Assembly (NCBI GenBank): GCA_944472135.2
Contig: CALYDD020000353.1
Coordinates: forward strand, 186,001 to 250,000
Direction of reading: 5' to 3'
Source of the DNA: Trichobilharzia regenti
Lineage: Eukaryota; Platyhelminthes; Trematoda; Strigeidida; Schistosomatidae
Length of the DNA: 64,000 nt
The notes beneath the pieces were generated by a model. It did not search any database. It worked only from the letters and a program-made list of their open reading frames with translations, and had not been told where the DNA came from. Each line of letters starts with the position of its first letter. Positions within the stretch are counted from its first letter, which is position 1. The position numbers and the translations under genes were made by a program. This document shows, one piece after another, positions 2,961 to 61,500 of this stretch.

Positions 2961-2964
2961 TAAC

Positions 2965-3432: not shown

Positions 3433-3435
3433 AAC

Positions 3436-7414: not shown

Positions 7415-7731
7415 CTGCTTTCGCAGATTCCCAAAACTTCTATTCTGTACCTTCTCATTTCAGCGGCTATCTGGGCAGCTGACTGGCTTCCCGAAGGCTT
7501 TCACCAGCCTTCGTCATTTTGTTGTTCTGATTGCAGCAAAAAATAAGGTTATCGTTTATGCTTTTGGAATTTTTAATATATTTATTCGCTGAACTTTCTG
7601 TAGCGATTTGGTTGTTTTACGGAGGTGGAGTTGCTAGCACCACGCTCCAGCCCTCCCTCTTTACCCGGGCTCGGTACCGGCTAGAAAACTAGAAAGCTGG
7701 TAGCCTAGCAAGCAAGTAATCTGGCGAGGTT
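7415..7731 (-). other. RTE 5' end and frameshifted N-terminus
   Basis: On the minus strand, 7415-7540 encodes the start of the endonuclease in shifted frames. From 7560 to 7731 lies the untranslated 5' end, GC-richer than the surroundings. The target duplication follows directly. Confidence 0.6.
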
Positions 7732-7743
7732 ACCAGTTTACTT

Positions 7744-8230
7744 GCTTTATAGGATCAAGGTACACTGGCCACAGCTAGAAGACGCTTTCCACACGGATAC
7801 CGGAATATATTCAAGCATGGCTTTATAAAGGTGAAAGAAAGTGTGTGCGAAGCTCAATATTAAAGAATACCTGTTCTTTTTTGTCACTCTAACAATCCTG
7901 TTCATGATTTGAAGATCATCTACCGAATCCAGGCTTACTTGCCGTGTTTTCTTAGTTTTAAATTTCTAAAGACGGCCGAGGCCTTGACTATTCATGAATT
8001 TAAGTCAGAACTTTGTGCAAAACAAGGTGTGTACAAATTCTAACTCTGGCTTGTTCGTAGAGGGATAGACAATAATTTATTTATTTATTTTGTTTATTTT
8101 GTTATTCTATGTGCATTTCTCTCATTACTATTATTATTTTTCTCACTCCTAAGTGTTTCCGCCTGTCTCACTTGTCATTCAGATCCAAAATTTTTAGTTT
8201 TTATTTAAACAGTATTTAATTCTAGAGTAT
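7744..8230 (-). other. left arm of inverted duplication
   Basis: Reverse complement matches 44570-45000, for example the segments around 7795 (CACACGGATACCGG) and 7940-8000. No exon is seen in either copy of this part. Confidence 0.7.
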
Positions 8231-8234
8231 TGCT

Positions 8235-8540
8235 TTTGCAGGGAATTAGTTAGATTGGATGGAGTAGTTCATCATGAGCTGACATCAGTTAGAAAACCAC
8301 TAAAAAACCAGCTGTGAGTGCTGGATAGCTGTTCCGTTCTGGTTTGAGACTCCCCCATCAGTGCTCACCATCAACAAATTTCGATCCCAGGACCCCCTGA
8401 GTACAAAGTCAGCGACCTAGTTTGTAGACCACTGAGCCACTGGGACCCGATCTTATTCAAGCAGTGACCTAGGGTTCTAGTGATGGGCCGTGAACAGTAG
8501 GGTACAGAAGGTTGAAAAGGAGACAGGCAGGTAGCAGGAT
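8235..8540 (-). mobile_element. tRNA-derived SINE ('SINE-C' family), shared by both duplication arms
   Basis: Degenerate SINE with a tRNA-like head near 8370-8460 on the minus strand and the family body (ATCATGAGCTGACATCAGTT at about 8270). A related copy occurs at the same place in the other arm (44380-44550), so this insertion probably predates the duplication. Confidence 0.65.
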
Positions 8541-27691: not shown

Positions 27692-27822
27692 AATTGTTCA
27701 AAATGTAAATAAGTATGTATGAACAGCTAGAAAATTGTGTGAATAAACATACTTTTTCACTAATTTTTATTTTCGGCTGTTCATTGTTCAACAGAATTTC
27801 TTAGTATGAATAACAATTATAC

Positions 27823-28123
27823 TGTAGCGGTAAATAATTCCCCAAAATTATTGACCACAGCAATCACTCATTGGATGCTGACCACCACTGTTTAAGTCGA
27901 CTTGTTTAGCTGAAGGCTTCCGGTCAAGCATCCCCGCCATTTGGTACCTCGTCGTGTCACGTGCACGATCACTAGCTAGCTAAGCGTTCGTCTAACGGCT
28001 TGTTTTGGTTCCTAAATATATCGCTTGGTTTGGACGATCAATTATTGGCTTTTGCTTTGTCTTTGGTACGCGAGAATAAATTAATTAGAAGTTGTTGAAC
28101 GAGATATCACGTCAACCTTTAAA
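27823..28123 (+). repeat. gypsy 5' LTR (301 bp)
   Basis: Starts TGTAGCGG and ends CCTTTAAA. One difference seen from the 3' LTR (GGTTCC versus GGCTCC). Preceded by ATAC, which also follows the 3' LTR (31100-31103). Confidence 0.9.
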
Positions 28124-28236
28124 CTGGTGAGCCCAACCGCGAACTTCATCCACGATAAATCCGCAGATAACCCCGGTGAGTTCGTTCCATTTTGTATTTG
28201 TTCTTGTACCATATATTATTCGACATAATTTTCGTC

Positions 28237-29064
28237 ATGAGTGATCTTAGTCCCAAGGTCATCCGTATCCGCTCAACTCCTAAAACCATTCAGCTCGTAC
28301 CATACTGGCCAGATAATGCTGAAACGTGGTTTCTGCTAGCTGAAGCAGATTTTTGTGAGCATGGGATAACCGATCAACGTTCACAGTTACTTGCAGTTAT
28401 TCACGCCCTACCGCGGGAATTCAGCAAGTACGTAACATCACAGATGTTGAGTCCCGAGGTAAGTAACTCGTACGAGTTGCTCAAAGCATCCCTCCTCAGG
28501 AGAAACGTTCTCACGGACCGACAACGTCTAGATGAATTATTTCGTAACATCGAGTTAGGAGATCAGTCAGCCGTGAGCATGCTGACAAGAATGAAAGAAA
28601 TCGTCGGCCAAAGTCAGTTCGACGAAGGACTATTTAGAGAACTCTTCTTAACCAAGTTGCCACAGTCTGTACAGACCGTACTTGTGACACTTCAGGGTAC
28701 TGTAATAGAGGACTTAGCTATTACTGCAGATAGGATTCTAGAGATTACCAAACGGTCTGTCCCCGAAATATGCTCGATGACTAAGCAGACTTCGAGTAAG
28801 GATCCTGCAATGATAGAGTTATGCAACTCCATCCAGCAGATGTTTAGGTCAAACATGCCTTCTAAATCCTCCGACCGTCGTCCTAAATCTCCTCAACGCA
28901 GGAACTCACGTGGTCGATCTAAGTCCAAACCACGTTCACTGAAAAACCCTGACTGGTGCTGGTACCACAACACCTATGGCCAAGAAGCGAAGTGTTGCCG
29001 TAAGCCTTGTAACTTCGGAAATGTCTCAAAGTCTGCGGGAAACTATCCCGCCGGCACGCGTTAG
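28237..29064 (+). CDS. gypsy Gag-like protein
   Basis: I chose the ATG at 28237 (MSDLSPK) over the in-frame ATG at 28192, whose extension is hydrophobic and not shared with the relative at 13995-14693. 275 codons. The capsid-like part has WFLLAEADF, RRNVLTDRQRLDELF and LPQSVQTVL. The C-terminus is Arg/Ser/Pro-rich and carries CWYHNTYGQEAKCC, a CX2H...CC zinc-binding-like motif. It packages element RNA. The protease frame starts within its last codons in another frame. Confidence 0.8.
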   Translation: MSDLSPKVIRIRSTPKTIQLVPYWPDNAETWFLLAEADFCEHGITDQRSQLLAVIHALPREFSKYVTSQMLSPEVSNSYELLKASLLRRNVLTDRQRLDELFRNIELGDQSAVSMLTRMKEIVGQSQFDEGLFRELFLTKLPQSVQTVLVTLQGTVIEDLAITADRILEITKRSVPEICSMTKQTSSKDPAMIELCNSIQQMFRSNMPSKSSDRRPKSPQRRNSRGRSKSKPRSLKNPDWCWYHNTYGQEAKCCRKPCNFGNVSKSAGNYPAGTR

Positions 29065-29543
29065 CGGCAACCGTCGCCGGTGGCACTAGCCGCCTACTTT
29101 ACATCCATGATGTGATAAGCCAGACTCGATACTTAGTCGACACAGGCGCCGAAGTCAGCGTCCTTCCTGCTACAGCAGCAGATCGACAGAAGGAACCTAC
29201 CTTCAACTTACAGGCTGCAAATGGAAAACCAATCGCAACCTTTGGTAGGAAATACGTCTATCTGAACGTAGGTTTACGCAAACCTATTCGGTGGATTTTC
29301 CTTCTCGCTGACGTTACAATGCCCATCATTGGCACGGACCTACTTAATCATCATGATTTACTCGTAGACGTCCGCCGAAAACGACTGATTGACAATACTA
29401 CTAGTCTGTCTATCAAAGGCATCAGCTACATAGGCCCTAGCTTGTCACCCGTTAAGATAAAGGCAATTCTTGATCCAACTTTTCAACCTATGTTGACAAG
29501 TATCCGGAACTTAATTGCCCGTCGAACGACCTACCGTGCATAA
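29034..29543 (+). CDS. gypsy aspartic protease region of Pol
   Basis: The frame overlaps the end of Gag by about 30 bases (frame change), so it is expected to be made by frameshifting. The retropepsin active site [13 protein letters not shown] is at about 29132-29170. The flap-like FGRKYVYL and the C-terminal [16 protein letters not shown] follow. The frame ends at 29543, just before the RT, which is in another frame. One frameshift mutation near 29500-29545 therefore separates protease from RT in this copy. Confidence 0.8.
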
Positions 29544-29554
29544 CCAGCAATGTT

Positions 29555-30298
29555 ATGCACCACATCATTACCACAGGACAACCTGTGACATCTAAAGCAC
29601 GACGATTAGCTCCTGACAAACTGAGAATCGCCAGGAATGAATTTGACCATATGCTTAGCCTTGGCATCATTCGACCTTCGAATAGCCCATGGGCATCCCC
29701 ACTTCATATGGTTCCGAAAAAGGATAGCAATGATTGGCGACCCACCGGTGATTACCGGCGAGTGAATGCCAAAACAACCCCTGATTGCTACCCGTTGCCT
29801 CATATACACGACTTGACGGCAACCTTATCCGGCGCGACTATATTCTCCAAAATCGACTTGGTTAAAGCGTATAACCAAATCCCGATGGCAACAGAAGACA
29901 TCCCGAAAACGGCTATCATTACGCCTTTCGGACTTTTTGAATTTCTACGTATGCCATTCGGTCTTCGGAATGCAGCCCAAACATTCCAACGCTTCATTGA
30001 CGAAGTATTTCGCGGTCTCGACTTTGTATACGCATACTTAGACGACTGCCTCATTGCCAGTCCAGACAAGGAAACTCACCTTAGGCACTTGGACTTGGCA
30101 TTTGACAGGTTACGCCAACATGGTGTTACCATCAATATTCAAAAGTGTCAAATCGGTGTTGACTCACTCGACTTCCTGGGTCACACTATTGACTGCAAGG
30201 GCATTCGCCCACTGGCTACTAAGGTTGAGCCTCCTAAGAAAAACCGTTCTGGACGCACCGTAAGGTTCCCAGAACATTTGCACACTTATTTGACTTAA
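29555..30298 (+). CDS. gypsy reverse transcriptase fused to Pol tail
   Basis: 247 codons. HHIITTGQP and [11 protein letters not shown] open the domain. Motif A is [12 protein letters not shown] (about 29850), [15 protein letters not shown] is motif B, and YLDDCLIAS is motif C with the catalytic Asp pair (about 30040). After [15 protein letters not shown] (the RT end) the frame runs into [13 protein letters not shown], the Pol C-terminus. RNase H and integrase are therefore deleted with the frame preserved. Confidence 0.8.
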
Positions 30299-30798
30299 CG
30301 AAGTCGTGTGATTCACGCAACTCACTCGTTTGTGGTACTAACTATTTTTTTTGACGTATAATTTTTTTATATACAGTACCACCGAACACAAAAAATTTTT
30401 TTCCAACAGTTCATGTAACATACACAAAAAAATTAATTAGATGTATTTTTTTTTCGATGTTCTGAACTTAGCATTATTTTACTGTATAGTAAATGCACAC
30501 AATTTTTTTTAACCAAAAAGCTCATTTCGTACATTTTCCTCGACATGGTTCTTAGCGTTCTTGTTTTCTTTTCCAGGTGCGACGGGCACTGGACAGGAAA
30601 CAAACGAAGCACGGAATCCAACGAACAACAACCAGGAAGCTATGTACAAACACCCTATTAGCATAGGCAGACAAACCAGTAGGCATACGACCAAGCCGCT
30701 CGGAAGATTTTTTTCACCCGAAAGGGAACCATCGAGTTTTTTTACTTCCGGCTGGTTCTGTCTTAGGGTCCTCACGACCCCACTAGGGGGGAGTGAGC
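30299..30798 (+). other. gypsy 3' untranslated region
   Basis: T-rich blocks (30340-30500), then a purine-rich end (30782-30797) serving as polypurine tract. An 80-codon frame at 30561-30803 has no known similarity and is probably chance. Confidence 0.6.
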
Positions 30799-31099
30799 TG
30801 TAGCGGTAAATAATTCCCCAAAATTATTGACCACAGCAATCACTCATTGGATGCTGACCACCACTGTTTAAGTCGACTTGTTTAGCTGAAGGCTTCCGGT
30901 CAAGCATCCCCGCCATTTGGTACCTCGTCGTGTCACGTGCACGATCACTAGCTAGCTAAGCGTTCGTCTAACGGCTTGTTTTGGCTCCTAAATATATCGC
31001 TTGGTTTGGACGATCAATTATTGGCTTTTGCTTTGTCTTTGGTACGCGAGAATAAATTAATTAGAAGTTGTTGAACGAGATATCACGTCAACCTTTAAA
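30799..31099 (+). repeat. gypsy 3' LTR (301 bp)
   Basis: Partner of 27823-28123. Followed by ATAC at 31100-31103. Confidence 0.9.
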
Positions 31100-31459: not shown

Positions 31460-31505
31460 ATGTTTCTCGGTTTCCTGATTGTTATCCTGTTTTTACAGGC
31501 TTACA
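31460..31505 (+). CDS. MEG exon 1, signal peptide
   Basis: ATG plus 14 codons and one base: MFLGFLIVILFLQAY, a short hydrophobic core with little N-terminal charge, then donor GTAAGT. The last base A joins GT of exon 2 to make Ser. Cleavage is likely near AY-S. The strong donor right after the signal sequence is typical of MEGs. Confidence 0.85.
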
Positions 31506-37500: not shown

Positions 37501-40500
37501 TTATCAAAATAAAATCGTATGTCTAAAGGAGTTATAGTCTACCACGATGCCTAAGTTTTTACTTATATCAACAAACCACACCTAGACAATAATGAACTTG
37601 GATGTATAGGGGGAAACTTGAGTATGTAGCTGGTAACCTCATCTTGAAAAAACGAAAATACCATCGCCACTGAAATTTCAAAATTGGGGCTTGAAACCCA
37701 ATGTTCCAATTAGAGCACTAGGCAATCAATTAATACACTTCATATTGCCGAAAGTTTTAATTTTGTTTCTCATAATTTCATTTTGTATCCGGTGTTTTTC
37801 CAATGATAACTGATGCGTTTTATCGAGTGAAATGAGTTTTTATGGAGAAATTATTCAAGCATTCTTTCTGAGAACATCTGCTATGTTATGTCAAAGATCA
37901 CTGAAATAAAATCGTCTACATTTCAGGTGTCGAGGGTAAACGAGGTAAGTAAGATTAAACTTGTCTTTTCTGTCATGTGCATCATCTATTGGATATAGAA
38001 TGTTGATTCAAAAGGCTGAATAGTCGTATGAGTAATTACTTCATCATTTCAAAGGGTTAAATGCCAACTGACTGCACAGCTTGGAACAATAACATTTTAA
38101 TAATCATTTTGTACAATACAATAATAAAACTTCGTATGAGCTGTGATCAAGATTTGACTGAATACATCCTAAAATAATTTGGTGCCGAATGAGAAGTAGT
38201 TCTTATGTCTTTAGATCTCTGAAGACTTGAAGAAGCTGGATAACAAATCAGAGATTGCACTAGACGTGATAGAAAATCTAAACAAGATCGACTTTGATAG
38301 GACTAAGGTTCTACAGAATGGTTCCAGGAATGGCTGACTGAAGATGCCCTACATATGTATATGTGTGAACCAGATGCATGACAAATCCTGAATAATAAAT
38401 GGAAATGCATATGTTTCCCTAATAGATCACACTTCGTAGAAATTTCCGTTTGTCTCTATCTTCTTATGGAGAGAGATATATATAGACCTTTGTTATTTTA
38501 ATTTTAAATAATTTGCTTGAATGGTTCCAGACCGGTTAGTCTGCCGAAAGCAAGAAACATCGTATTACTCATTTCAATTTTGATGAGATTTTCAAAATAA
38601 TAATTTAAACCAAGTAGTTCCTTTATGACATCAGACAAAACAATAAGAAGACGTAATTTGTCTGGACTGTCTGATGTATTTGCGTAATACATTTCGAACA
38701 ATCTGATCACACACAGACGTGTCATAGGGATAGATATGCAACTAATAAAGAGTTAAGAGGTGAGAAAATAGACATGTTAGGTAAGGTTAAAATGAGATAT
38801 TGAAGGTCACAATAACAATGAAGATCACTGAACCAAATAAGGGAGGTAATGGTACATCTCCTCTGGCTGGTATCAAAACACAGCTTACCAAGTGGGGTTT
38901 AGCGTGAAGACGAATCGCTGCTTTGATCTCATAAAGTTGGCTAAAACTTCCTCATTGCTTTAGCTTGTGCAAACTTTAGAATACATCATACCCCAAACAG
39001 GATGTATATAGACGTTTAAAAGATGTGTGCGAACGCCAATTTTATGTCCTGTCTATATAGTATGTTTCGCAATAGATTAGCTAGGTATCATGTTCTCAAC
39101 ATTAATGGGTTCAGTGGATTCTTAATGATTCTGAAACCATTAATAATATGTTCGAAAGCCAGCCTTTACTTGCAGAGATCGATGAGTCCCCCCTATGTAT
39201 GTGTGTCTAAACGTACATTCGAATTGGTAAATACTGTGTCATGTGACATCATGGCTTAGATGGATACAACGGCTACATATTCCTAATTATTATGGTATGA
39301 GCCAAGTAGAAGTTTTTCATAACAGCACCGTTCAACCTGTATCTAGTTGCTGAGCAGTTATGATCATTTATATTGCGTAGCTTGATGTACACGTCTTTTT
39401 TATAGACAAGTTGGACAGTGGATCCTGGTGTTCTGACTACCTTATATATCTCCTGGTGGAATTACCAGGATAATTATTATCAACCAGGCAGAGTTCGCCT
39501 CAACTATCTTTCTTCCTCATTATGTGTGTCTTCAGTGCATATTCGTTTGGTTCTACTGAAATGGCACCTCACTCTCTAAGTCTCTATTTTAATTAATTAA
39601 TAATTAAGATACTGTCCTGTCCTGTCCTGTCCAGAGCAGCTTTCTATAATAATTGTTTTAACTATTTTTTGTAGCAAGTACAGGTAAATTTTATTTCATT
39701 TTTATGTAACGATTATCACCTTCATATAACGGAAATGAATTTGTGCAAATTTCAACACACAAATAGGATCATATTTTATGGGTGAAGCCACTGTTAATGT
39801 AGCCAGGAGACTAATGACTTCTAGAAAGGTGATCGTTTGTAAGTCATACTTAAATCTGAACATTAAATCATTGGGCTGATATATGTTTAAGATTCAAGAT
39901 TACTCTCATGGATAATTTATGTCTGTCAGTGTAGGTATAAGACGTTGCTTCCAACAGGTATTTAGACTGTTGTTAATATTCCCTTGATTTCTGAGCGGAA
40001 CATAAGCTTTCAATGGCATGTGCCTGTTTTGTATTCTTCGTCGTAGTCCTCTTTAGCCGAACTTTTGATACCTTGTCAGCTCTTATCTTCTCTACAAATG
40101 GTCACCTCCACGCCTATCAACTCATGTGAATTCTCTTCCTGCAATGTCTGCTCTCACTTCAGTATTCATGCATTGACATATGGCTTTTTATGTTACAGTT
40201 TGGCATGTTGTCCATTGGTATTTGCAGATGTTTGTAGAGAAGACACAGTAGCCTATTAGGTTCACGAATGCATTCACTAGCCCGTGATATTTTGTCAATA
40301 CGATTCCAGCTAAGATTAAATTTGTTTTTTCTATGTTATTCGTTTGCTTTAAAGTTCTGTAGCGACTGGACTGATTTTCAGGTTAGAAGCTCTCGCACTA
40401 TGCCCACCCTTCACTGTTTTCTGTTGCTCGACCCAACTGTGGTTAGTAAACTAGCATGCTAGTAGATTAAGTCAGGTGTAAAAACGCAAGACTATTAGCC

Positions 40501-43500: not shown

Positions 43501-46500
43501 GAGCTCGCCATGCAACATGAGGGCCCACTGTTTAAACCTGATGGGTAGGTGGTGGGTAGCGTTGGTGAGCCTCCAAAATAGGACGAAACACCTGGTTTTC
43601 CAATGGTCCCCTAACTGATGTCAATCCGTGTTTAACTGCGGGATCCAGGTACATCCAAGGAAATACGAGCCCTGAATAGGATAAAATGTGCATACCAGAT
43701 TCCACTGCTAGTTATCATTCAGAAGTTTAACTTATTCTTTTAGAAGTACTCTGATGCTGATTCTAACGAGATAGAGACGTTGTTTAAAGTACATTTTTTG
43801 AGTAGATGACTATTGATTTCAAAACTTCTCAAATGCTTTTCGTCTAACTTTCATCATGAAAAGACAATTCACCTTAAAACTAGTCATATGAGGCGTCTCT
43901 CACAGAGTAAATTATATTATATATATGGATATATTACTATTGTTCCTCTGAGTTCCGAATGCTTCACCAGCACATCTCCACTTTGTGCGACTTTCTGCAG
44001 TACTCTTTAGCTTACCTGGTGGTTGTCCATAGCATATGATCTCCTACGTTTCACACATGGTATCACACCCAGAACCAGTGGAAAACCTGGGAGTACTGCA
44101 CAGCCTTTTCGTCCTGGTTTAAGACTCTTCAGCGGTACGCACCAAACGGGGTTTAAACCCAACCTTCTGGTTACAAGGCGAGCTAGCTCGTAGACCTCTG
44201 AGCCACTGTGACCTGATCCAATGGCCATGAATTGTAACTTTTGCCAATTCACGACATAGCGCGACCATTCCTCAGTGTCTTCTTCGACGGGTTACTGCCT
44301 AATCTTCAACTTTCTGTACCCCACTGGTCCCGGGTATCCCTTAGTACCCCAGGTCACTGCCTAAATTGGATCAGGTCTGAGTGCCTCAGAAGGTACAGCG
44401 TTCGAACCCAGACGGGAACGCGCTGATGAAGAGTCGCAGACCAGGACGTAACAGTTGTCCAGTACTCCCAGGTTTTCCAGTGGTTCTCTTACTGATGTTA
44501 GCTCCTGATGAAATCCTCCGTCCTATCAAACTAAATCACTACAAATTCAATGCTTGAGAATTCAAGATTGTTAAAATATAAAGAGAACTTGGATTTAGAA
44601 TGACAAGTGGGACAAGCGGAAACAATAATAATTATAGTAATGAGGGAAAGGTATATAGATCAACTAAATGAACAAAATAAATAAATAAATAAATGTCTAC
44701 CCCCGACGACCATGGAAGAAGTAGCAATTGTACACACATTTTTGTACTTAAAGGTTTGACTTAAATTCATACGTGGTCAAGGCTTCCACTGTCTTTCGAA
44801 ATTTAGAACTAAGAAAACACGGCACATTAGCATGGAATCGGTAGATGATCTTAAAATCATGAACAGGGTTTGTGTGGAGTGACAAGAGTTGATCACGTTT
44901 TTAGGAATATTAAGCTTTTCACACCCTTCTTTTCTCCCTTATGAAACCATGCTGGAATATGTTCTGGTATCCGTGTGGAAAGTTTTCTCTGGTCAATGAA
45001 CCTTGGTCTGCAAGAGCAGGTAAACTGATGGATGCACAATGAGGCCACCGGATAGGGAGCTTATCTTTTACAGAAATGGAGAACAACTTGCAGCTGGTGA
45101 ACGTCATTTGTAATTCTGCTGCAAACAACCTCCTACTGACTGCTGTCGAAATACAGTTTTTGAGCATATCTGATGCTTGATCACTTTTGAATTTCAAGTT
45201 CATGAATGAGATTTTCATTTGAACTGAGTCGGTGACCAACTAAGACTGCTTATCCTTAAAGTTACTATCAATAAATAAGTTAGTAATGTAATTGTAAGAA
45301 AATGATTCAACTGTGTGATATTTTTACCTTTAACATATTAGGCGGATCAATGTGCCGTGTGTGTAAGTTAATGGGAACACTTTGATGTTTTGATGAATAA
45401 TTTAAAATGTTGCTTACTGTCAACAGAATATTATTGTAAATATTATTACTATTAATCCTTTTGCGTTCCGAGTGGAACATAGGGCTTCAACAACACATCT
45501 CTACATTGTTGTGTTTCACACTGTCCTCTTCAACTAGGTCCACGACTGACCAAACTCTCTAATCGCTTCGTCACACGATCTCCTCCATGTCAATCCAGGA
45601 CGACCTACTTGTCGCTCTCCGTTTGAATTCCACTCGATGATCTGGCCTGAAATGTCATTCGACGGCCTCCTCAATGTATGGCAGATCCATGTCCACCATC
45701 TCCCCCACATATTTGGTGAGCAGTTGGCACTTGGTTGGTTTGTTCCTTCAGTTTCTTGTCAACAGAATATACAGGGATTGAAACCGACATCTCGTGGTAT
45801 GAACGCAGGAAAACAATCGTTGTGTTCTACTGTAAATTTGACTAAAACTTCATAAGTTGCACAGTCCCAAATGTCAAGAAGACATTGTGGATGAGATTTA
45901 TTTTCATAAATGTTCACAGTGTTATACAGTAGTATTTACTGATGACCACGTTTTCGTGCACATTTTATTGCCAATCATATTCATATCACGGCATTACTCA
46001 CACAACATTCTAAACTTCCATCATATAATTCCATTATTTTCCATCGTTTGATTTGATTGGTAGTAGTATTTTCAATATTTCCGGTGTGAGTGACGAATAT
46101 TTCTTAATGCACGTGTTGGGTGTAGATACGATGAACAAGGATTCAGTAATCAATCTCCCTCTCCGACTACCTATATTACTTTATAGAATTTTGTACTCTG
46201 TGCCGCCCGTCATTTGTGTGATTGTGTGTTCATGCATCCAATGAAACGTAGTGCTATGTTTTTCTCTAAATTACTTGTCTTCGTAGGATCAGTCATTCTA
46301 ACCTTAGCTAAACTCTTATGTTCTGACAAACAGTTTCACTACTCCCTATCTACTAGTTTGACTTATATAGTTGACCTCACCAAAAGGCATTGCAATGTTT
46401 GCTGAAAATTTCATTATTTTGTCTAATTGGGTCAACCTACAGGGTCTTTTAGCCTACATATCTTGTCCTCCCTGAGTGAGTTTGTAGGTTTGAATGCTAC

Positions 46501-49500
46501 GCTAAGTCCTGCTTTATTGAGGATCCTACGTGGGGCCTTCATGTCCCATCCTTATATGCTATAACAGTAGATGTCTTATATTCCCTCTAATTTATGTTAT
46601 AATTACTAGTTTCACCATTATTTTCATTTTTATTTTCACTCCTCTCATCTTCCTAATGCATTTTGTAGGATAGTTAGTTATTTACACAAACGCTTCTTTT
46701 TCTGTGCGTTTCATTTCATCGATTAGGTTTTTTGTTGTACTACTTAGTGCTACTACTCGGTTCGTTAGACAAATAGCTAAAGCTGCCTTTATAATTAATG
46801 GATGAGATGAATTAAAGTCTAAATATCTACTAGCAGAATGCTTGTGGTAATGTGCAGTTCATCTTCGTCTGTTAGGAAAACAGCAAAAATACAGTGAATT
46901 GTAAAGAATACGATATTACTATTTAATAACTACTAACTAAAAATCAAGTAAGATATTAAAAAAAGCGTGGGATCATAACCACGTCAGCAGGAACAACTCA
47001 CTAAACACTTCCTGTGGACACTATTAAGTTCAAAATCCTCACAGCGAACCTTGAATTTATTCCTACGAAATCCTAAGTGTAAAATAAACAGTACATCGTC
47101 AACACTATCCCAAAACAATAAAGAGAAGCATTACAATCAGAAATTATACAAGAACAAAGTAAGCAGGTGATGGATAAACCCTAAAACCATGATATGATAT
47201 TTTGTCTAGCAGAAGAGGGTATGATAATTAGAAAACTAGCGGAAATCGTAATGAACAAATATATTCGATTGTATTCTGAATGCAAAGAGCCAACCTCTCT
47301 CTATGTTCTAGTGTATAGCCAACAAAACTTTGCTGAGACACGCGCTTTCACAAAACGTTCCATAAGCGGAGAAAACTCAATTATTCTTCAATATTTTAGC
47401 GGCTCTATTAGAAAATAATAAAATCAAAAACAAATTTACGTCAACAGTGAGAGCTGTGACGCAGCTAGCTGCTATACCGGCAATGTAGGTTTCCAATATA
47501 CAAAACAAGTACGGTAAGACAAAATCAGTTAACTGAAGTCCGACTGTCAAAAGGTACTGTAGAATCGTCGAGAATATTTCCAATGAGGTGCAGTCAAAAT
47601 AACCACACACCAGCAATCACTGCAATATATTCTTCAGTGAGAATCACTGTCATTCACACAAAAAAACTCATGTTGCTTATAAGCAACGTACCGTCAATCT
47701 ACACACAACCATAAACAGAAGTGTTACAATTGTGTGCGTCGGTAGCACAGCGGTTGGCACTCCCGGTGAGCATACACATTGTCAGGGTTTCGATCCCTGA
47801 CCGACGCAGGCCTGATATCAGTGGTCGACCTGCTAAATTTAGGCTACCGATATCACATGCTGAAAATTCCATAGTTGTACCAAAATAATATGAAGAATCA
47901 AGCTAAAATCAAAAATAAAAAAAAATTAAAATATTCATTTTAATAATGCGTTTTTTTTGGCGATTTCGTGATTGATTTCACTGTGGTTTTCATCATCAAC
48001 CAAAGGTATTTCGGGAATCACTGAAAGCCAGAGAGTAATGAACAGTTCTGCCATCAAAATTTCGAACTGTTCAACTCTCAACATCTACAACTTCATCAGG
48101 AATCAACCTAAAAACTTTCAGGTTACAAAAATCATGTACACGGAGTTTTCAGGCACTCAAGGCGGAATTTCGTATCTTTGTTAATTCCTTATCATGGCGC
48201 TATCCGAATAAGCATCATCAGTTAGCATCAAATTTCATTTTGAATTGGTGTAACCCACTGGCCACTAACTACCATTCCGAAATGGGGAAGACTATCTAGT
48301 CTCAAAGCGCCGTGAATATGTAAACACCTACGCTTAATTTACAAAACGTTCTTTTATTATTATTTGGAACTATGGAAATACTTGCAAAGAACAAATACAA
48401 ATATGTCTTGTCAATCCATTTATATAATCCTACTGTTATCCTCTACACAAGTGGAGATAATTGCTGGATTTATGCAATACATGTCCAGGATTTGTGAGTA
48501 TTGCTAAAAACAGTAGATCAGGGTATCAGGAATCCCTGTTATTCTGATTTGATTGCCTTAATTTTCCTTCCGTATTTTAAGTGCATAATTTCACAAGAGA
48601 ATCTTACAACTTTTTTTCATTTCAGATGGACCAGTTCAGAATCGATTTTGTGAGTTTACTAAATTTGTTTGACAAACAACCCATGAAAGTGAAGGGAACA
48701 CCTAAACGGATGTGTGACAGCCAAGAATACACTTCTGATAACTTGAATTCTAAGCTGTAAAGTTGTAATGTGGTTCTTAAAGTTAATGAGAATGACTAGA
48801 ACGGTCATTTTGTGACAAAACATCTGCAAATACAGATGTGGAAAAATAATGAATAAATTATGAGACCTAGTTGAGTAATCTTGCATAATCTAAGACATTT
48901 TGATGACGACTATTGTTCAGAAATGATAAACAATCAAAAATGTGAAAACACTTGACAACAAGATTATTGTTCATAAGAGTAAGCAATTCAGAATGCGTGT
49001 GTGTGTGTAAGTTATATATGCATTTTACAGTTAGGAGTTCTGTCCAAGAATTTATTTTCTGTATTACTAATGTTTTATAATTTTAGGCGCACTTGGATGC
49101 TTAGGTAAAATTTATTATTAGTATATTTAAGTTCAACTTTTGATAGTTTGTGAAGTCACCAGCACGGTTCACCCCACTTACCTGTCGGTGATAACTGTTG
49201 GGAAGTTGGCATGTAGCCTGGGATTTATGTCCCGTATTCCATAATGACAGATCCATTAATTCAAAACTTATGAAGGAAAGACTATTATGGATAAAATTTT
49301 ATTCTGATAAAATTACACAGCATGCTACACTGAAATAATAACCTAATATAAGACAAGACTATATAAATCACAATAGGATTGATGCCCTAATGACAATGAA
49401 ATGTTTGCGAAACATTGAAAACCAAGAAGCACTGAATGACCGTTTCATCCTATTGTTGGGATCAACGGCAGTATGCATCCACCATCAGGGTTCCAACCTA

Positions 49501-52500
49501 CGACCTTCTGGTTACAAGACAAGCTCGTATACCATTCAGCCACTGGGACACGATTCATTGACCACCACAGGAATTCTAACTTCTACCAATTCGTGATCAG
49601 GCGCGACTGCAACCAATGTCATTAATGGCACATCCATCATCACGCGTGACAGGATGGACCCCACTGGTCACGACTTCTCACTAGAACTCCAGGAAACTTC
49701 ATCCTGTAGGAAATCATTAGCGAGCATCAGATTAATTCTCTGAAGTTGCTTTGTAAGGGTTAGTTTCGCTTTTACGAGTTGATCACGGATTAATATCAGT
49801 GAGAGAAACATTGAAAACAAGCCAGGGTGTCCCGGACAGCCTTGAAACCGGAACGTCTTGGGTTTGAACCCTGGCAGTGGGTGCGTACTGCCAATGGTTC
49901 CCAAACTAAGATGAAACAGTCATTCAACACTCTTTAGTTGTTATTGGTTCTCTAACTGATATCAATCCGTGAAACGCTAGTCAAATCCAGTAGGTTATGA
50001 GAGGTTTAACATTAATGCGTGTTAATCACGAAAGCAGTAGCAATTGTTATGAAATCACCACTTAGTGAACAAACAGAAATTATTCGCTGAATGGTTTCTA
50101 AGCAGAGCAGGTAACATAATCTCAAAAATAAAGAACTCAGAGAAGAAAATCCTCTTTCCAACTATTTCAATTCCATAGCTGTACAATAGCATATATATAC
50201 CTGAATTACAACAGAAAATAACCTTTAGTTTTTTTTGTGTGTGTGAGTGTGTTAAAGTGTGACAATATTGGTTCATAGTATTATGAGTCACAATTGATTA
50301 GATCGGCATACTGCTGATGATTGCCAGACTAGGACGAAACAGTTGTCGTGTACTTTCAGGACGTTTTCAGTGGTTCTATAGCTGATATCAATCGTCAAAC
50401 TTGAAAAGCAAATGTAGTCCATACAATAAAACTATTTAAAATTAATCTGATGCTCACTATTGACTGGCTATTGGAGAGAGTTCCCTGGATTTCTGATGAG
50501 AAGTTGTGACCGGTGGGGTTCACCAGGTCAGGAGTGAGGAAAAATACTCACCGATAATACTGGATGGTGGTCACGCTGTAACGACAGAAAACAAGGGCCA
50601 GGCAACAGATAAATAATTGAGAAAATCAACAGATAATTATGTTCAACTATTGGTCTGTAGGGATTTGGTTGATTGGTTACAGGATTTCACCATGAGTTGA
50701 CATTAAATAGAGAACCATTGGTAAACCTGTTGCTTCGACCTAGTTTGGGACTCTTCAGCAGCACGCAACCACCGGGGTTCGAACCAAGGACCTTCTGGTT
50801 ACAAGGTGAGCTCGTATACCATTATGTATTTATGTATTTTAGGTACATTATTATTAGTTATTTCAGCAGAAAAACAGCGTCTACTGATTGGTCGTTCTTA
50901 CTCACTGGAAATAATTTTGTCGTCCCTTTGTGACCGTTTCTTTTTAAAGTCGGTCAGAACATATATCTCCGAATCGAATCCACCCACGCAAAGTCTGCTA
51001 TTATTGTCTGTTGAGTTAGTTGTGTTTTTTCGTGTTCTTTTTTTCTGATGACTAAGATTTGGAACGTAAACTTTGACGTCAATTGCCGTCTACCAATTCT
51101 GCTTAGCAGACAGCTCTCACCACAACGCTAAAATCAAGAATTTGTCGAGGTTAAAATTTATGCGGTGACCATTGAATCGTGTCCCAGTGGCTGAATGGTC
51201 TGTGAGCTTGTCTTGTAACCGGAAGTTCCTCAGTTCGAACCCTAGTCGTGAGTACTGCCAATGATTCCCATAATATGATGAAGTGGCTCACCAGTACTCT
51301 CAGGGGATTTTCAATGGTTCTCTAACTGACATCCATCCGTGATCAACTCGTAAGAACAAAACTAATCCTTTTCAAAGTAACTATTGAAAATGTAGTTGTC
51401 GAAAAGGGGATTTTCGTCGATGAATTCTTTGTTTCTATAATTTCAAAATGCAGATTTATATAAGCTTGAAACTCGACAGAAGCAATCCGTCATGATGAAA
51501 ATACTATGAAAGTCAGATACTATGACGTTTATCTGATAAACGATACTCACAACAGAAGGAAATTGCGTCGTGTTGACTGCATAAAGTCGTATTTGTGCGT
51601 CGAAAAAAGGTGGAAGTTTCTGAAAGTTTCCGAAAGAAGCTATTGAGGAATCAAGTACCCTTATTGACGACGAATCAAACTCCGCCTAAATCCAAAATGA
51701 GGTCTTCATTGTTTACGATAATAGATGGTAGGTTCTAGAACATAGAAGAAGGTTTTCATCCTGAAATGTACATGTTTTGCTGTATCCATACAGGGAATGA
51801 ATATTTCCCGAATATCTTTATTTTCAGTCAAAGATTTTGTGTTTTTGTTTGCTAAATGGATGTTAAAATGAGTCAGTTGTTTGATAACATAAACTTTTCT
51901 AATTTAAATACTGGTCGCCTTTTATAAACTTTTCAGATGAAGATGGAAAGAAATTTGAAAAGTGTAAGCTGACTGAGGTGATAAATTTCAATTTTTAATG
52001 TGGTGCAATTCCGATTTTCCCAAATAACATCTTGCAACCGACAGGAACACAAATCAGCTGTATTAAGACGATATAAATTATTTCATATCCATGCATGTAG
52101 ATAATTATGGAGATCACTTTGATTGGGAAAAGGTCGAAATTTTAAACTGAGGAAACACTAAAAATGCAATCAGAGAATTCCCAGAAGCCTGGTGGTCAAA
52201 TGAATATGCGATTAACAAGCATATTAATATAGACCAATTTTACTAACTAATAAAAAGTAAGACATGTGACGCGATAGTTTGAAATCCAAGTCAATAAAAT
52301 GCGTTCAACACAGATAAAAATCTACTACCAGTCATGAAGATGGTTACCAGGAGACGCAGTTCTATCACTCACGGAAAATTGTGCTGAAGATGTTGTCCAG
52401 AAGGTGGACGACGTAAGCTCCCCAACTAAACCAAATAGCTCAGAGAACACTACTAATAGCACACCATGTTCACAAGTAATCTGCATTTCATGAAATGATT

Positions 52501-55500
52501 TCAACTCTGTTTTGGACTTTCTTAACCAGTCTTTCGTACAATTAAAACTATGATAAGCTTATCAAAAGTCACGGAAACACTTCAATGTCACCTGTGATAC
52601 CAACAGGGGAATAATACCTGAACAAATTCACTGAGCATGTACACTTCTAATATATATATTTGCTTGCACAAACGATACCGACCTCTTTTGAGTGGACACT
52701 AGTAACTAGTACAATGTGTCCAGGCCTCTGTTTGGTGCAGGCTGAATTCTATCAGTCACATTTGTAATGTGACCATCATTCTAGGTAGCTTGTCATCACG
52801 GTGCACATTGATTTGATGGTATTGGATGGTTTGAGGCAATCGACCACAGAAAGCCTTTCCTTGACCTAAGTTTCGTGTTAGTTGGCACTCACCAGTCAGC
52901 ACGGCGTGTCGGAAGTATCCGTAGAGGCTATTTTGAGGTTTTTTCAAAAATTAAAAAAAATATCCACAACATTCCTATAGAAGGTCGGTAGCACAGTGGT
53001 TAGGACTCTCGCCGACCATGCACATGGTCCGAGGTTCGAGCCCTGGCCGACGCACACCTGATATCTATGGTCGGCCTGCGAAATTTGGGCTACCGATATC
53101 CATGCTGAGAATTCCATACCTGTAGCAAAAATACGGTGTGGAATCAAGCTGCAATCAAAAATAAAAAAAATGAATAAATAAAAATAAGGTCAATCGCCAG
53201 CTCGAATAGCTCAGTGGTAGCGTCTCTGACTGCAGGCGACACTAGGTGACACCGGTTTGAATCTCAGAAGGGATATGAGTTCCGTTAAGGGGATTCCAGA
53301 TACGCCTTGCTGACTGATGAGTGTGTCAAATAGCATGAAACCCAGATTAGGCAAGGCTTCCTGTGGCCGATTGCCTCCAACCATCTAATAATACCACCTT
53401 CAAAGTATGTAACATTCTTGTTATCTTCCTTATGGGTAAAATGTGTTTTGATAAAGTCAAACAGTGTTATACAGTAGTAATATTTACTGATGAGCATGTT
53501 TTCGAGGACAATTTATTGCCACTCATAATCATATCAAGATACTCACACAATTGTCTAACTTTGTTTAAACAATTCCATTATTTTCCATCGCATGATTTGA
53601 TTGGTAGTTATATTTTCCATATTTCTGGTATGAATGATGGGTCATTACATCCTATTGCACGTGTTGTGTTTGCAGACTAGATGAACAAGGTTTCAGTAGT
53701 CAATCCCTATCTTCACCTACATAGATTACGTTTTAGGATTTTGACTCTGTCCCTCCAACCCAAATGTGTGGTTGTGTGTTGATGCAAGCAGTGCTATTGC
53801 TTAGCTTTTTTCTGAATTAGATGTCGTGGCGTGGTCAACCAAAACATAAATAGGATATAATCTAAGGCAACTACACTTTCAAAATATGAGGAAAGGACAT
53901 CCGAAACCCTACGTAGGATTCCTAATAAATCAAAAATCAGGGTGATGTTTAAGTCAAAGACCTCACTCAGGGAGGACCCGACACATGGAATAAAAATGAT
54001 TCATCACTCATACGAGATATACGGAAAATACTACCACCATTAAAATCAAACGGTGGAAAATAATAGAATTATATGAATGAAGTTAGAAAGTTGTGTGAGT
54101 GCCTTGATATGATTATGACTGGCAATAAATTGTGCTCGAAACGTCACCAGTGAATATTACTGTATAACACTGTGAGACTTTATCGAAACAAAATTTACCC
54201 AAAATGTATTTATACTTTACTACAGTGCACAAGTTTTATTCTTATATCAATGCTTTTTATCTGTAAGGAGCAATATGATTCACAGTAGAATGTAAATCTA
54301 TGTTGTGCTAGGTGCTGAAAGTTGTTATAGTAAGTCTATCAAATTTATGAAGTAATTAGAAGAATAATCATTCATTTTTGGTTGTCTTTATATTGATCAG
54401 AGTTTATTCATCAGTGACTAGGTAGAAGAAGAGAGGAAGAAGCTGATAAACACAGCTTGGCATCTTTCTGGCTTACCGCCTCATATCATAACAGCGTCGG
54501 TGACACTGAGGTTAGGACTCTCGCCGAACATGCACATGCACCAAGGTTCGATCCCCTGCCGACGCACACTGATATCAATGGTTGACCTGTAAACTTTAGG
54601 CTACCGATATCGCATGCTGAAAATTCCATACTTGTACCAAAATTATGGTGTGGAATCAAGCTGTAATCAAGAAATAAAAATAGTGACCAAAATGTTTGAT
54701 CCGATTATGGTTCAAGTAAGAAGTAGGCGAATGTGCACTGTGAAAACGGGTGTATGAAGGCAAAAATGGAGTTCATTTTGAAGACTGACGTTCACGAATT
54801 ATCTGAAAACCGAGTATCAAGCGGAAATGCTGTGAAACCGATGCAAGTTTAACAGTTTGCAGAATGCTGCCTGCTAGATAAACTTTCCTAACTGATATCA
54901 TATTTCAGAACACTAGGATTCTTTTTATCCCAATGTTGTGGAGGAGGTAAACTTCTTGCTTGAAAGGATTGATGATAAGCATTACGTAAATAGGAGTACA
55001 CACAGGGAGATTGCAGCAATTATTCACTGCCTGAGCCAAAATATGTTGAAAGTTTAGTAAAGATGTCTAGTCACCTAACTCTCCGATTCACTGTAGCAAA
55101 TATTGAAATTTAAATAAACTTTAATAACGACGTATGTCATTTGATTGATTCCCCTGATTTCGGGAAACAGTTTATGATTTTATTTGACCTAATGTCTAGA
55201 CCAGCAGTGAAACATTGGACTCGTCACTGTTTCAGAGCCCATGATTGCAGCTAGTATATTGTCCCTGTTGACGTCATTCAACTATAGGTGATCCTAAATC
55301 AGCTGACTACTGTAAGTTTTCTCTGTGAAGGTTATTAAAGTGACTAACATTCACTTATATCTATGGATTCAAGTATTGGTTTGTAGGGATTTGATGGATT
55401 CTTACGTCTTATTTGGCTGAAATATTTTATGATTTCAAAAGAATGATTACTGAACAAAGAATATTTTTCTCAATAAACTGGTGACTTTTTGGCCGGCTTG

Positions 55501-58500
55501 GACTAGGTGTTCTAATATCGAGCTGTTGATATTCCTCACTATACTTTTATTTAACCAGTCCGCTGAGGGATTCTGAGCACGAAAATTCAAGTTTCTGGAG
55601 CAGTGACCACTATAACTAGCCGGTGTATACATACTACTTAAGAATACCAAACTAGGATGAAACTGTTGTCCAGTACTCCTAGGTGCTTTTCCAATGGCTC
55701 TCTAACGTATGTTATGAAACCTGCTATTTGTAAATGAAACGGTTCGAGGTGAATTTTTACCGTTGTTTGGAGGACCACATTTGAGATCTTTCAGACACCA
55801 TCATAAATGGCCATCTAGTATGCAAGTGTCGATGTATGATGACGTACACAGCTGGCTGATTTATATTTGCATAATTCGTTGGATATCAGTCAAAACAATC
55901 AATTCAACTTATCTGAATTCTGACAACTAGCTACTGCAACTGTCTGAGATGCGTCGTACTTAGAAAACATCGCTGATAACCTCTGCTCTGAACTAGAGAA
56001 ACAGCTATCTGATGTTTTAGGTCACTTCAATCTGGCTGTTAAGCTGAATCATTAGTGATGAGCATGGGATCCAACTATTCATGTCAATGAGTCAGTGTTA
56101 TATATGACTTTGCGCATTCACATGTTTTATGTTCACTTAATTTGTCTTAGAGGTAGTCTTTCATTTTGATGACTTGTATAATAATATTCGAAAATGAAAT
56201 TTCATCTACGTTTTCAGGCAAGATATACTGTAACCAATATCGTAAGCGATTTCCAATGAGATGTATCCTGTTTGTTTGAAATAATTATTTCCAGATTTAT
56301 GCGTGGATGTCCATCATTCATAAAATTAGGAGTCATTTATTTCCCATATTATTCGACTATTAATTTTTCCACTTGAAACGAGACGCTCACCTCTGGATCC
56401 ACTGCTGTCTAGCACTTAAGTGCAACTAATTACGTGAGATGAAAAGAACTGACAAAGCAACCGTTTTAGAAAAAGCGCTTCCTTAGAAATTACTCGAACC
56501 CACTACAAATAAAATTTGGACAATTCATAATTCCCTATGAGTTGAATATATATATATATATTCTGCTGGTCTATGAGCCAACAATTTTGTGAGATTTGTG
56601 GAAAAATAATGATGGGAATTATACTGACAGCAAATCAGGCTCTATAATGTAAATGATAGACTGTTTTCTAGCACTTAGAGTTACTCGCATTGGTGATAAG
56701 TCGCCATAAACTAAGGTAGTGACAGTGAAGACTTCTCCTTGTTTAGCCGTTGCTCTCTACCAGCTAACTTATACTCCATTGTGACAAAGTGAACTGTCAG
56801 GAATGTCGATATACAGATATGCCATCGTCTAAACTATGAGTGAAACAATTAGAATTCAACCGGTGCATAGTGACTACCAGTGGGAATCCAAGACAACCAG
56901 AATTTCGTCCTTTTTCGGCACACGTGGTCAGCTGGATATATCCGCATTCTCCGGTTATTGAATGATGATGTTCCCGCCGCCGAGGATTGAACCTAGTGTC
57001 CATAGTTTCAAACTCCAGAGCGTTCTAATTACACGCCTAGGCACATCGTCGAAGGGTCTGCATAAGAAGTCAAAATGTCAACCTGAAAGACCGAGCATTT
57101 CGCTCCAATCAATCGACGGGAAAATCTAAAATTCAGTTAAATACAAATGAGATAGTGAATAGACTCAAAAAGAGAGACTTCAAACTATTTTCAACTACAT
57201 AAAACAGATATTCAGGACGACATGAATGTTCAGTAGACTGATATTAACTGAAACTAATGTCCATTTGACGCACGGAATGTGAATTGTTGATTTTTTTCTT
57301 TTACATCTCTTAGTTTTACCTACTACTAGAAGAGATATATGTAAGAAATATTCATTTAATAACGTTTTACCATGTAACATTTGGTCTTCTAGTGATCACC
57401 TCATATTCGTCAAAGTAAAATACGCATAACTGTTGAATGTTGAATGACCAGTGTAAAAATTACCGTAGTTTTCATTGCTTATCAGAATCAGTCAGAATAA
57501 AGTCCTTGCAGTTTCGAAAGATTTCATCGCAACACAGTTTTTCGAACCTGAATCACTTAGCTCTATCCTCAATAATGTCATCATTGAGATACTTTTCCAG
57601 TGACAACATATTTTCTGTAGTTTATAATGTATGCATATTTGTAGACCTTTAAGTTGTAATGACTGTCATATTTCTGCTATTCCTTGTTTTTGGAAATCAA
57701 TGAACAGACATACAAAGCGATGACTGGTCAACCAACTTGGTGATCATACTGACAACTAGACTGTAATATTTCAGTCAGCATTCGCACAAGTGACTGGGAA
57801 CAAAATGCTGTTCGCTCTTTAGATATTTACCAAAATGCAAAATTGTTTTTGATTAGTATTTAATGGATGCATCATTCATCTTGTTCATTTCGAGTTTTCA
57901 TATGTTGATGATTCTCTGGACTTCTGAAATTCGTCATATCACGTGTTGTTTTGGGTGGATGTATTACTGTGTTGTTCTATAATACATTTTGTTTTACTAA
58001 TAAATTCAAAGGCTCCGAAATTTGCGAAACAGGTATGTATTCTTGATGCTCTGCTTTTCAGCCATAATTTAAATAGTCTCGTGCGACTGTAATGTTTCTA
58101 TAATGATGAATTTGATACAATATTAATTTCGTGACCACTTTTTTCAGGTATTCATAATGTGTACTACTTAATATTAGTCCAAATAAGAAACAACATTTGA
58201 AAATGCCAAGTATTGGCTTGTAGGGATTTTATCTGATTGGTTGGAGGATAACATGATGAGCTTACATACGTGAGAGAACCGTTGAAAAAACCACTTGGGA
58301 GTCCTGGATAGCCGGCTATCTTGCCCAAATTCGCCACTCATTACCAATACGCATCCATCGTCATGGTTTGAAACCAGGACCATTAGGTCACTGGGACACC
58401 ATCCGATGCCTACTGCATGGATCCAAACTCCTGTCAATTCATGACACAGCATGATCACTTCGCAATATCTTCTTCGACGAGTAACTGTTGTCACCTTCGA

Positions 58501-61500
58501 ACTGTTGTACCCCATAATTCATGGCTCTATACAAGAACCCTAGGTAACTGCGTGGAAACGGTGACTCGCTAGTGAGCATCCGATCATTTCTCAAGTACTG
58601 GTTTTGTAGGAAATTTGTCTGAGTGGTTTTTTATTTGTCAGTTGGTTGGTCGGTTAGTTAATACCAACCTGCTGAATAAAGATTGGACTTCGTCAGATTG
58701 GAGGCCACATGTGAAGTTCAAGGAATGTTTACCCTCTTCGGTTATCCACGATGAAACACAGAAGTTTATAAACTCTGTGATAATACTTGATACAAGACAG
58801 GTGATGATATTTGAATGTAAAAATTCGATTTTATGCACAGAATGCGGGTTTCTTCACATACTGACATTAACTGAAGTATGCCTGAAAACTAGGATCAGTT
58901 GAGCAGCTTTTTTGTCTTTGAATGAAATGCCGACTAGTTGGTTTCACCCTGATCATTTGTAAAGATGAATAATGGATTAGTTCTTGTGGTAGTCGGTGGA
59001 GACTTGGAAGTGGTAAGTGTTGGAAATACCAGATGAACTATCCCTAGATTTCCAAACATTAGATGAATGAATAAACTACTTGACTGGTAGCCTGCAGATG
59101 CTATCTCGAATATTTTTTCTGAACTCATGTAGATATATGCTGTTTATAAGTCAAAAACAAGGACAAAACATCTACCTGTTACAACATCCCGTGGCTCTTA
59201 AGATAACTCATATTAAAACTGGCCAGATCCCCACAGACGCCATACGTGTAAATTCACTCTAGCTTACAATCCTGCTGTCTACATAATTCTTACATATGTG
59301 TCTGCGTGTGAGGGGATCATAACTTCACTCAAATTTCTAAAGGTACTGTAATATATATATAAACATTTTACTGAACAAATGTTGGGCATATTGGATGTAA
59401 TTTCCTCCTTGTAGATTCAGATGACCATTTGGAACTTCAAAGTTGTAAGGCCTTTGATTTCAAATTGGTGTATATATTGTTGTATTATATTTGTGTAATT
59501 CATCCACTACATCACAAAATAACTAATTAGAAGACGGTTTCGGCTGAATAAAAATCTTCTCCACAGATGAAAACACGTACTAGGTCATACATTTTTGTGG
59601 ACGTCTAACGTAGGAGGGAGGAACCTGTAGAGCGTCGTTTCTGGTTAGGCGTCAAAATATGGCCAGGAACAAAGTGAATCCGATGAAAAAAAAAAGAGGA
59701 TACCGAAAACATAATTATTCAGATGATCACACTTCTGTTCAGAACAACAAATAATTATGCTGGTCATTGTAAATACATGGATAAAGCATATTTCTTTTAT
59801 CTATGATCAGTTTAAATTTTTTGTGTCATTCCTGCTTCAGCTATGTCCAGATGTTTGATTTCACTTCTTTATACAAGGTTGAGTGGACTTCAATGGGTCA
59901 GGTGTCTCAATATGAGCTGAATATCTTGAGTTCACGAGGTGCTCCGTTGTTGAACTACAGACATATACCTGTGTAATAGCCTCACATTCTCATACTCAGA
60001 AAGGAAAATAAATTCGGAGAAAGTTGTTTCGCAGGTCTAGGTTACTCACGATGTAATCAGCTCCATAGAAGTATGTGAAATGTAAATAAACTTGCAATTG
60101 CATGGAGGATTTCATCATGAGCTGATATCAGTTAGAGAACAACTAGAAAACCAGGGAGTACTGTACAGCTGTTTCATCCTAGTTTGCGACTCTCCACAGT
60201 ACTCACTCACCGAGGTTCGAACCTAGGACCTCCTGGTTACAAGACAATCTCATATACCATCGAGCAACTGGTGATTACCACACTTTAGTTTCAGGTTTCC
60301 ATCAACACGTTCTGCATTAATTTGCTTTATTAGATGGTTACTTGGTTTCATTGGCGATCGTAAATTTAGGTGATATCGAATGAAAAACGTCTTTGCTACT
60401 CCTAAGTATCACTCACCTATTGAAATTAGTAAGCAGTAAGCCTCTCGTCAGATGAACTGCTGGAACACATTATGCAACCAATTGAGTTCGAACTTCTTAC
60501 AGATATATGACCGAAGCTAAGTTGTTCGAAAGCTTTTAATAATAAGCAGGTGTCCTCCACATATATACCTTATCGCATAGTAATACCTGAATACTACTTC
60601 TCACAGCTAAGATCCACTCATAAAGAACATGATGTGGGGTAGATCTCGATGTAGACCCAAATTTAACTGACCACATATTATTTTTCGTAAATCAAAAAAT
60701 TGAATTCAAATAGCATAATAAGCGTTAAACGGGTTTGACATTTTTGAGCAGAATGTTTATTCTTTTCAACACACTTGTGCATCACAATAATTTCAAGCTC
60801 TTCGAATTACACGAAGTTTTCCTCGAGAGACATGAAAAAAAATGCAAACTGCTAACCTGCCTACTCATTGCTGAATTATTAAGAATTTGCATAAATATTT
60901 TTTTTCAACTTCAGGTTTATTTCTGTGTGCCATAAAAGGTAAGCCCCTGTTTATTGTGGAGTATTGGTGATTCAATGGAAATCTGGCAGTTTCGCTTAAC
61001 TTTCAGTGAATTAATTTATCCAGTTTCATCGACTACCACCTAAATTAGAAGATCCTGGCCTTCGAAGAAATGTAAGAACTGGATATAAGTAGATCTGACA
61101 GTACTAAGTTCACAAATATTCACAAATGCGACTCTACTAGTATTATGAGACTGAGAGATGTGAATATCATCGACGGATGAAATATTTTGTTGGCTGAACA
61201 CGCTTCTGAACTGCAGATAATAACGTCCATTAAGTTTCCAGTGGAATATAGGCTTCAAGTTGAAGGCTTAAATGTTCCATAACAGTGGTGCTTTTTTCAA
61301 GCGATGGGGTTGCTTACCTGATACTAAATCCTCTTCATCAGCAGTCTTATTACTGGCCTAGTGAGTCGAGGATCCAACCCTGAATCACGTGTGTGGTAGT
61401 CCAATTATCTAACACTAAAACACCGACATATTAAATTATTTATTATTATATTTATTGTTACTTTGGGTTCCTAGTGTAACATAGGGATTAAACTGCACGT

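Follow-up and report, generated by a model that had tools for sequence, protein, structure and literature searches.

The 64,000-nucleotide stretch of Trichobilharzia regenti DNA analysed here (assembly GCA_944472135.2, contig CALYDD020000353.1, positions 186,001 to 250,000; hereafter, the window) carries a predicted gene that we interpret as a micro-exon gene (MEG) for a small secreted protein with paired cysteines. The region between 31200 and 63899 was inspected, and candidate donors and acceptors were scored with a simple, generic splice-site matrix. The predicted chain runs on the plus strand from an ATG at 31460 to 63882 and comprises 15 coding exons, 14 of them consecutive micro-exons (Table 1). 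The micro-exons are 18-30 nt each (mean 23.1 nt), every length is divisible by three, and the introns of the gene span 437-6421 nt. All micro-exons share phase 1-1: two bases finish the prior codon, whole codons follow, and one base opens the next. The spliced model is stop-free from the start codon and encodes 123 amino acids, including 12 cysteines, every one of which falls within a C-X3-C pair.

A preliminary description had placed six cysteine exons and five linker exons, in strict alternation, between 45342 and 60938. All 11 were recovered on the plus strand, each directly after an AG and ending at a GT donor, with lengths of 18, 18, 21, 21, 24, 24, 24, 24, 27, 27 and 30 nt. The residues between the paired cysteines (GSM, ALG, AES, KIY, SEI and LFL) are as described, the alternation is borne out, and the 11 exons lie in a single phase. 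The gene model exceeds the earlier range, adding the start exon, micro-exon 2 and linker L0 upstream and linker L6 downstream. The statement that exactly one linker occupies each gap holds for candidates scoring at least 5, but weaker in-phase candidates, at 46443, 48452, 48635 and 52401, also lie between the cysteine exons.

Table 1. Features of the window. In the reading column, slashes separate the bases that finish the prior codon, the residues of the whole codons and the base that opens the next codon.
Feature	Position	Strand	Length (nt)	Reading	Score	Remarks
First coding exon	31460..31505	+		ATG, signal-peptide-like MFLGFLIVILFLQAY		ends with first base (A) of next codon, then GTAAGT
Micro-exon 2	37927..37944	+	18	GT/VEGKR/G	8.2	phase 1-1
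Linker L0	42714..42734	+	21	AT/PNIKIY/T	9.0	last T completes first Cys of C1
Cys exon C1	45342..45362	+	21	GC/GSMCRV/T	6.4	C-GSM-C
Linker L1	48626..48649	+	24	AT/GPVQNRF/T	12.3
Cys exon C2	49087..49104	+	18	GC/ALGCL/G	5.4	C-ALG-C; weak donor GTAAAA
Linker L2	51937..51963	+	27	AT/EDGKKFEK/T	9.5
Cys exon C3	54312..54329	+	18	GT/AESCY/A	6.4	C-AES-C
Linker L3	55288..55311	+	24	GT/DPKSADY/T	5.2
Cys exon C4	56218..56241	+	24	GC/KIYCNQY/C	8.7	C-KIY-C
Linker L4	57314..57340	+	27	TT/LPTTRRDI/T	7.9
Cys exon C5	58012..58032	+	21	GC/SEICET/G	0.2	C-SEI-C; weak acceptor AAAG
Linker L5	59415..59444	+	30	AT/SDDHLELQS/T	6.3	alternative start 59421: 6.5
Cys exon C6	60915..60938	+	24	GT/LFLCAIK/G	11.1	C-LFL-C
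Linker L6	63856..63882	+	27	AT/LNDKMYDG/T	10.0
Inverted, diverged partial array copy	704..8516	-				alignable in blocks to blocks of 44.3-52.0 kb
Cognate of L2	794-768	-				final T kept; opens with in-frame TAA
Cognate of C2	3453-3436	-		C-TLG-C		Cys half-sites kept; poor donor GTTATT
Cognate of L1	3907-3884	-				identical; final T kept
Cognate of C1	4240-4220	-		C-RML-C		Cys half-sites kept
LTR retrotransposon	27822..31099	+				302-bp terminal repeats 27822-28123 and 30798-31099, 99.7% identical

The signal-peptide-like character of MFLGFLIVILFLQAY was read from a hydrophobicity scan, in which the exon at 31460 was the sole plus-strand match to a hydrophobic start between 25000 and 48000; the minus strand gave one unrelated-looking match. 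Dibasic KR in micro-exon 2 (37927-37944) and RR in L4 (57314-57340) are possible processing sites. Linker L5 has two acceptors, at 59415 and 59421, both in phase and 6 nt apart, and a switch between them would cost two residues.

All seven linkers (L0-L6) end in T, and each cysteine exon opens with GC or GT; the last bases of C1-C6 are T, G, A, C, G and G, respectively. The first cysteine codon of each pair is therefore completed across an intron. One cysteine pair per micro-exon, as the preliminary description had it, is thus true of the mRNA; in the cysteine exon by itself the first cysteine codon, split as T/GC or T/GT, is incomplete. Since L6 ends in T, another cysteine exon is predicted beyond position 64000, where the end of the window truncates the array. 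Of 496 donor-like sites across the window, 176 (35.5%) are preceded by a T, and seven of seven linkers would end in T by chance with a probability of ca. 7e-4; because fit played a part in the choice of L0 and L3, the real surprise is somewhat smaller than this figure implies. That exon skipping loses cysteines only in pairs was rejected as a general rule, for parity was not protected in simulation. Skipping a single cysteine exon left 10 cysteines in five of six cases, while the skip of C3 left 11 because the junction of L2 with L3 makes a new TGT. Loss of one linker left 12 cysteines in the case of L1 and 11 in that of L0 or any of L2-L5. Among all 2048 combinations of C1-C6 and L1-L5, 1132 had an even number of cysteines, as had 32 of the 64 in which only cysteine exons were dropped.

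The frequency of such exons was compared with that in control sequence. Cys-type sites, defined as AG/GY-N9-TGY, open in frame, with a donor present and a summed score of at least 0, numbered eight on the plus strand of 31401-64000, these being the six claimed exons and sites at 41885 (C-ANI-C) and 60041. Among 300 Markov-1 sequences of equal length, 236 contained no such site, 57 contained one and 7 contained two. None was found on the minus strand of 31401-64000 or on the plus strand of 1-31400; the count leaves out the minus strand of 1-31400, which carries an inverted copy of the array. In a cysteine-blind test, all 12 in-frame symmetric candidates scoring at least 6.3 on the plus strand of 31401-64000 were exons of the model (12 records for 11 exons, the two alternative starts of L5 both being included). 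At the same threshold, two candidates were found on the minus strand of 31401-64000, two on the plus strand of 1-31400, and four on the minus strand of 1-31400, two of which are inverted-copy exons. Null sequences (n = 200) gave a mean of 1.76 and a maximum of six symmetric candidates. The Cys-site count is the stronger of the two tests of chance.

Published definitions, taken here and below from excerpts of the cited papers, require of a MEG at least seven exons, at least half of them micro-exons (shorter than 70 nt and divisible by three), with at least four of these consecutive (PMC7653826), and place its signal peptide mostly or wholly within the 5' coding exon (PMC4671649). The 15 coding exons and 14 consecutive micro-exons of the predicted gene exceed these counts, and its 5' exon (31460-31505) encodes MFLGFLIVILFLQAY. 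Judged by these structural criteria on a predicted model, the gene is likely of MEG type. Long flanking exons at both ends and alternative splicing of the micro-exons are further MEG traits; the 3' end of the predicted gene lies beyond the window. It resembles schistosome MEGs in its 5' signal-peptide exon, its run of symmetric micro-exons, its long introns and the transposable elements nearby (PMC4671649, PMC7653826, PMC10526429). In the MEG literature covered, mostly incomplete lists of papers and excerpts of PMC10526429, PMC10399815, PMC4350168, PMC5825161, PMC4671649, PMC13219023 and PMC7653826, we found no gene with alternating cysteine-pair and linker exons or with an intron-split first cysteine. 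Given this limited scope, and 109 MEGs counted in S. mansoni (PMC7653826), an orthologue could well be annotated already without having been described. A review covering 35 MEG genes of S. mansoni lists cysteine motifs for MEG-2 and one clade (PMC10526429). The MEG-2/ESP15 family and the red clade (MEG-1, -3, -9, -28, -29 and -31) are similar to the predicted protein in being cysteine-containing secreted MEG proteins. Their motifs, as printed in the excerpt of that review (Cys2X(6/8/10)Cys2; CGGLppG; CX5/7/9HX3/5/7C and others), were not seen in the translation when the motifs alone were compared by eye; FEKC alone recalls part of one. A text search of papers for the peptide of the gene returned two papers, both unrelated as judged by title.

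The spacings between the six C-X3-C pairs are 10, 10, 9, 12 and 12 residues at the five joints. The cysteine motif of alpha-hairpinins, CX3C-X(4-20)-CX3C (PMC11591084), occurs at all five consecutive couples of pairs. Alpha-hairpinins are two helices held by two disulfides, which in BWI-2c are Cys11-Cys32 and Cys15-Cys28 (PMC7191063). The preliminary description had read the CX3C units joined by a short loop as a hairpin layout; the spacing agrees with this at every joint, the helices and disulfides themselves being putative. Because the spacing CX3C-X(9-12)-CX3C fits the motif, our best guess is a string of helical hairpins, each stapled by disulfides, and we consider the hairpin fold plausible, with the case for it about evenly balanced. 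Plant alpha-hairpinin precursors (such as Sm-AMP-X, Tk-AMP-X and EcAMP) likewise combine a signal peptide with C-X3-C-Xn-C-X3-C cassettes, whose number varies by gene (PMC7191063). In contrast, chickweed, wheat and barnyard grass have hairpin genes without introns, whereas in the predicted gene each presumed helix and turn occupies a micro-exon of its own; the barnyard grass protein also differs in having linkers of 16-27 amino acids between two-helix modules (PMC7191063). Among animal peptides, scorpion kappa-hefutoxins and OmTx and cone-snail peptides share C-X3-C-Xn-C-X3-C with C1-C4 and C2-C3 disulfides, but are single short peptides of 22-27 residues (PMC7191063). The likeness noted is one of motif, and we claim no relation in sequence; since the motif is shared, an animal hairpin of this kind would not be unprecedented.

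The explanation that we favor overall, with intermediate confidence, is that of a micro-exon gene for a small secreted cysteine-paired protein with a putative hairpin fold. In such a protein, a signal peptide and a short N-terminal segment would be followed by repeats of a unit formed by a cysteine exon (C-X3-C) and a linker exon, with 9-12 residues between pairs. Each C-X3-C would lie on a short helix, and adjacent helices would pair in antiparallel fashion through disulfides between their first and fourth and their second and third cysteines, the arrangement known from alpha-hairpinins; the linker exon would supply the turn between neighboring helices. Six pairs would most simply make three hairpins, or else a continuous zipper. 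The first cysteine of a pair would arise when a T-ending linker is spliced directly upstream. The micro-exons are all symmetric and share a phase, and the skipping of cysteine exons or of linker-cysteine couples would therefore yield in-frame isoforms with fewer units. That the number of hairpins is tuned by exon choice is a tentative suggestion. We are similarly hesitant about the wider proposal that disulfide helical units are built exon by exon, with splicing setting both the number of hairpins and the completeness of each cysteine pair. The most likely role of the gene would be to supply the host interface with a varying set of secreted peptides, a function that has been put forward for other MEGs (PMC4350168, PMC10526429).

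A number of observations weigh against this explanation, and they concern the fold, the use of individual exons and the exon series itself. With regard to the fold, the residues G, P, N, D and S were not significantly enriched in linker centers (9/19 in middle versus 10/34 in outer positions; permutation p = 0.15), and turn-forming residues were not absent from the X3 segments (5/18). MEG-2.1 peptides are described as disordered, and in one of them three cysteines as being without disulfides (PMC10399815). No homologue was found in a protein collection that includes flatworm proteins and requires three shared 5-residue words for a match; a fast-evolving MEG may lack such words. No Pfam family was matched by the predicted protein either. 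As hairpinins share little beyond their cysteines (PMC7191063), the absence of Pfam and homologue matches is a weak test of kinship with the plant hairpinins. The spliced product minus its signal peptide had no match among PDB sequences at E values of 10 or less. Four PDB matches (designed pentatricopeptide repeat proteins, E 0.013-0.044) were taken as due to chance, and this product retained none of them.

The gene could instead be a MEG without hairpins, its mature protein being disordered and its cysteine pairs binding metal, with which C-X3-C is also compatible, or forming mixed intermolecular disulfides. We regard this as rather unlikely. The disorder found for MEG-2.1 isoforms (PMC10399815), the non-significant enrichment of turn residues and the suggested likeness of a MEG-2 cysteine motif to a zinc finger or an iron-sulfur cluster (PMC10526429) are all in line with it. 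However, regular spacing over six pairs and an even cysteine total accord with disulfide-paired cysteines in a secreted protein, and no histidine or other ligand was seen by eye to recur near the cysteine pairs.

With regard to exon use, the acceptor of C5 (AAAG at 58012; total score 0.2) and the donor of C2 (GTAAAA at 49087) are poor. These two exons might be decaying or only rarely included, in which case strict alternation would overstate the real mRNA. The inverted, partial copy of the array on the minus strand lends this some weight, for there the cognate of C2 has the donor GTTATT and the cognate of L2 an in-frame stop. On the other hand, in the array itself both C2 and C5 are open and in phase, with GC...TGC correctly placed, and are flanked by T-ending linkers, and we consider partial use of the exons doubtful. 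In the four cognates read in the inverted copy, the cysteine half-sites and the linker T are all retained, which counts for the favored explanation; the TAA of the L2 cognate and the poor donor of the C2 cognate indicate that this copy is at least partly broken. Identity between the copies showed no significant excess in exons (81/90) over flanks (557/640; p = 0.50), which is a further point against the favored explanation. All nine exon differences between the copies alter a residue or create a stop, and five of them lie between the two cysteines of C1, but a sample of nine is too small to weigh.

With regard to the exon series, C2, L3 and C5 score below 6.3; at a score of at least 4, model exons make up only 13 of the 24 in-frame symmetric candidates, and 11 more candidates scoring at least 6.3 are asymmetric. 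Among the candidates outside the model is a 26-nt exon at 62636-62661 on the plus strand, between C6 and L6, with a score of 10.1, a strong acceptor and a GTAAGT donor; it was left out because, being asymmetric, it would shift the frame, and it may be real. The site at 41885-41908 (plus strand, C-ANI-C, score 4.6) may be a further cysteine exon upstream of L0, which would require a T-ending linker before it, and candidates there are weak. Just ahead of it, at 41743-41751 on the plus strand, lies a 9-nt in-phase candidate that ends in T. That the whole series is a chance pattern in intron sequence is highly improbable: the modest splice scores of some exons, the other in-phase candidates scoring 4-6 and the use of a generic matrix, drawn up after the exons had been seen, speak for it, but the null and control counts, the placement in the model of every in-frame symmetric candidate at or above 6.3, and an upstream signal-peptide-like exon in the right phase speak against it. 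We conclude that the gene structure is very likely real.

Other features of the window concern mobile elements. An LTR retrotransposon with RVT_1 (in 29474-30295) and DUF7041 (in 28180-29061) domains is young, as judged by the near-identity of its terminal repeats. It lies just upstream of the predicted gene, 360 bp separating it from the ATG, and the promoter region is thus squeezed against the element. For a reverse-transcriptase open reading frame at 16100-17758, the nearest among the best 120 of 931 matches came from Trichobilharzia szidati, with 72% identity and 72% of the query covered; the matches listed also include Schistosoma bovis (68% identity, 59% of the query) and Clonorchis sinensis (58% identity, 84% of the query), and together they point to a schistosomatid affinity. 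Three repeat pairs of at least 99% identity, one direct and two inverted (8896-9253/12499-12856, 21623-21970/26411-26064 and 15911-16116/17819-17613), point to recent insertions of transposable elements.

MEGs occur in large numbers and evolve rapidly, and what exactly they do is still unsettled (PMC10526429). If the proposed organization is true, exon borders that match the units of a disulfide fold would explain the micro-exon architecture as a means of modular fold variation, not of random peptide variation, and the masses of isoforms would differ by whole cysteine-pair units. The gene would then be a splicing-based animal counterpart of plant hairpinin cassettes, which vary in hairpin number from gene to gene. 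Such a modular layout could let the fluke vary the number of small disulfide-bonded units per protein.

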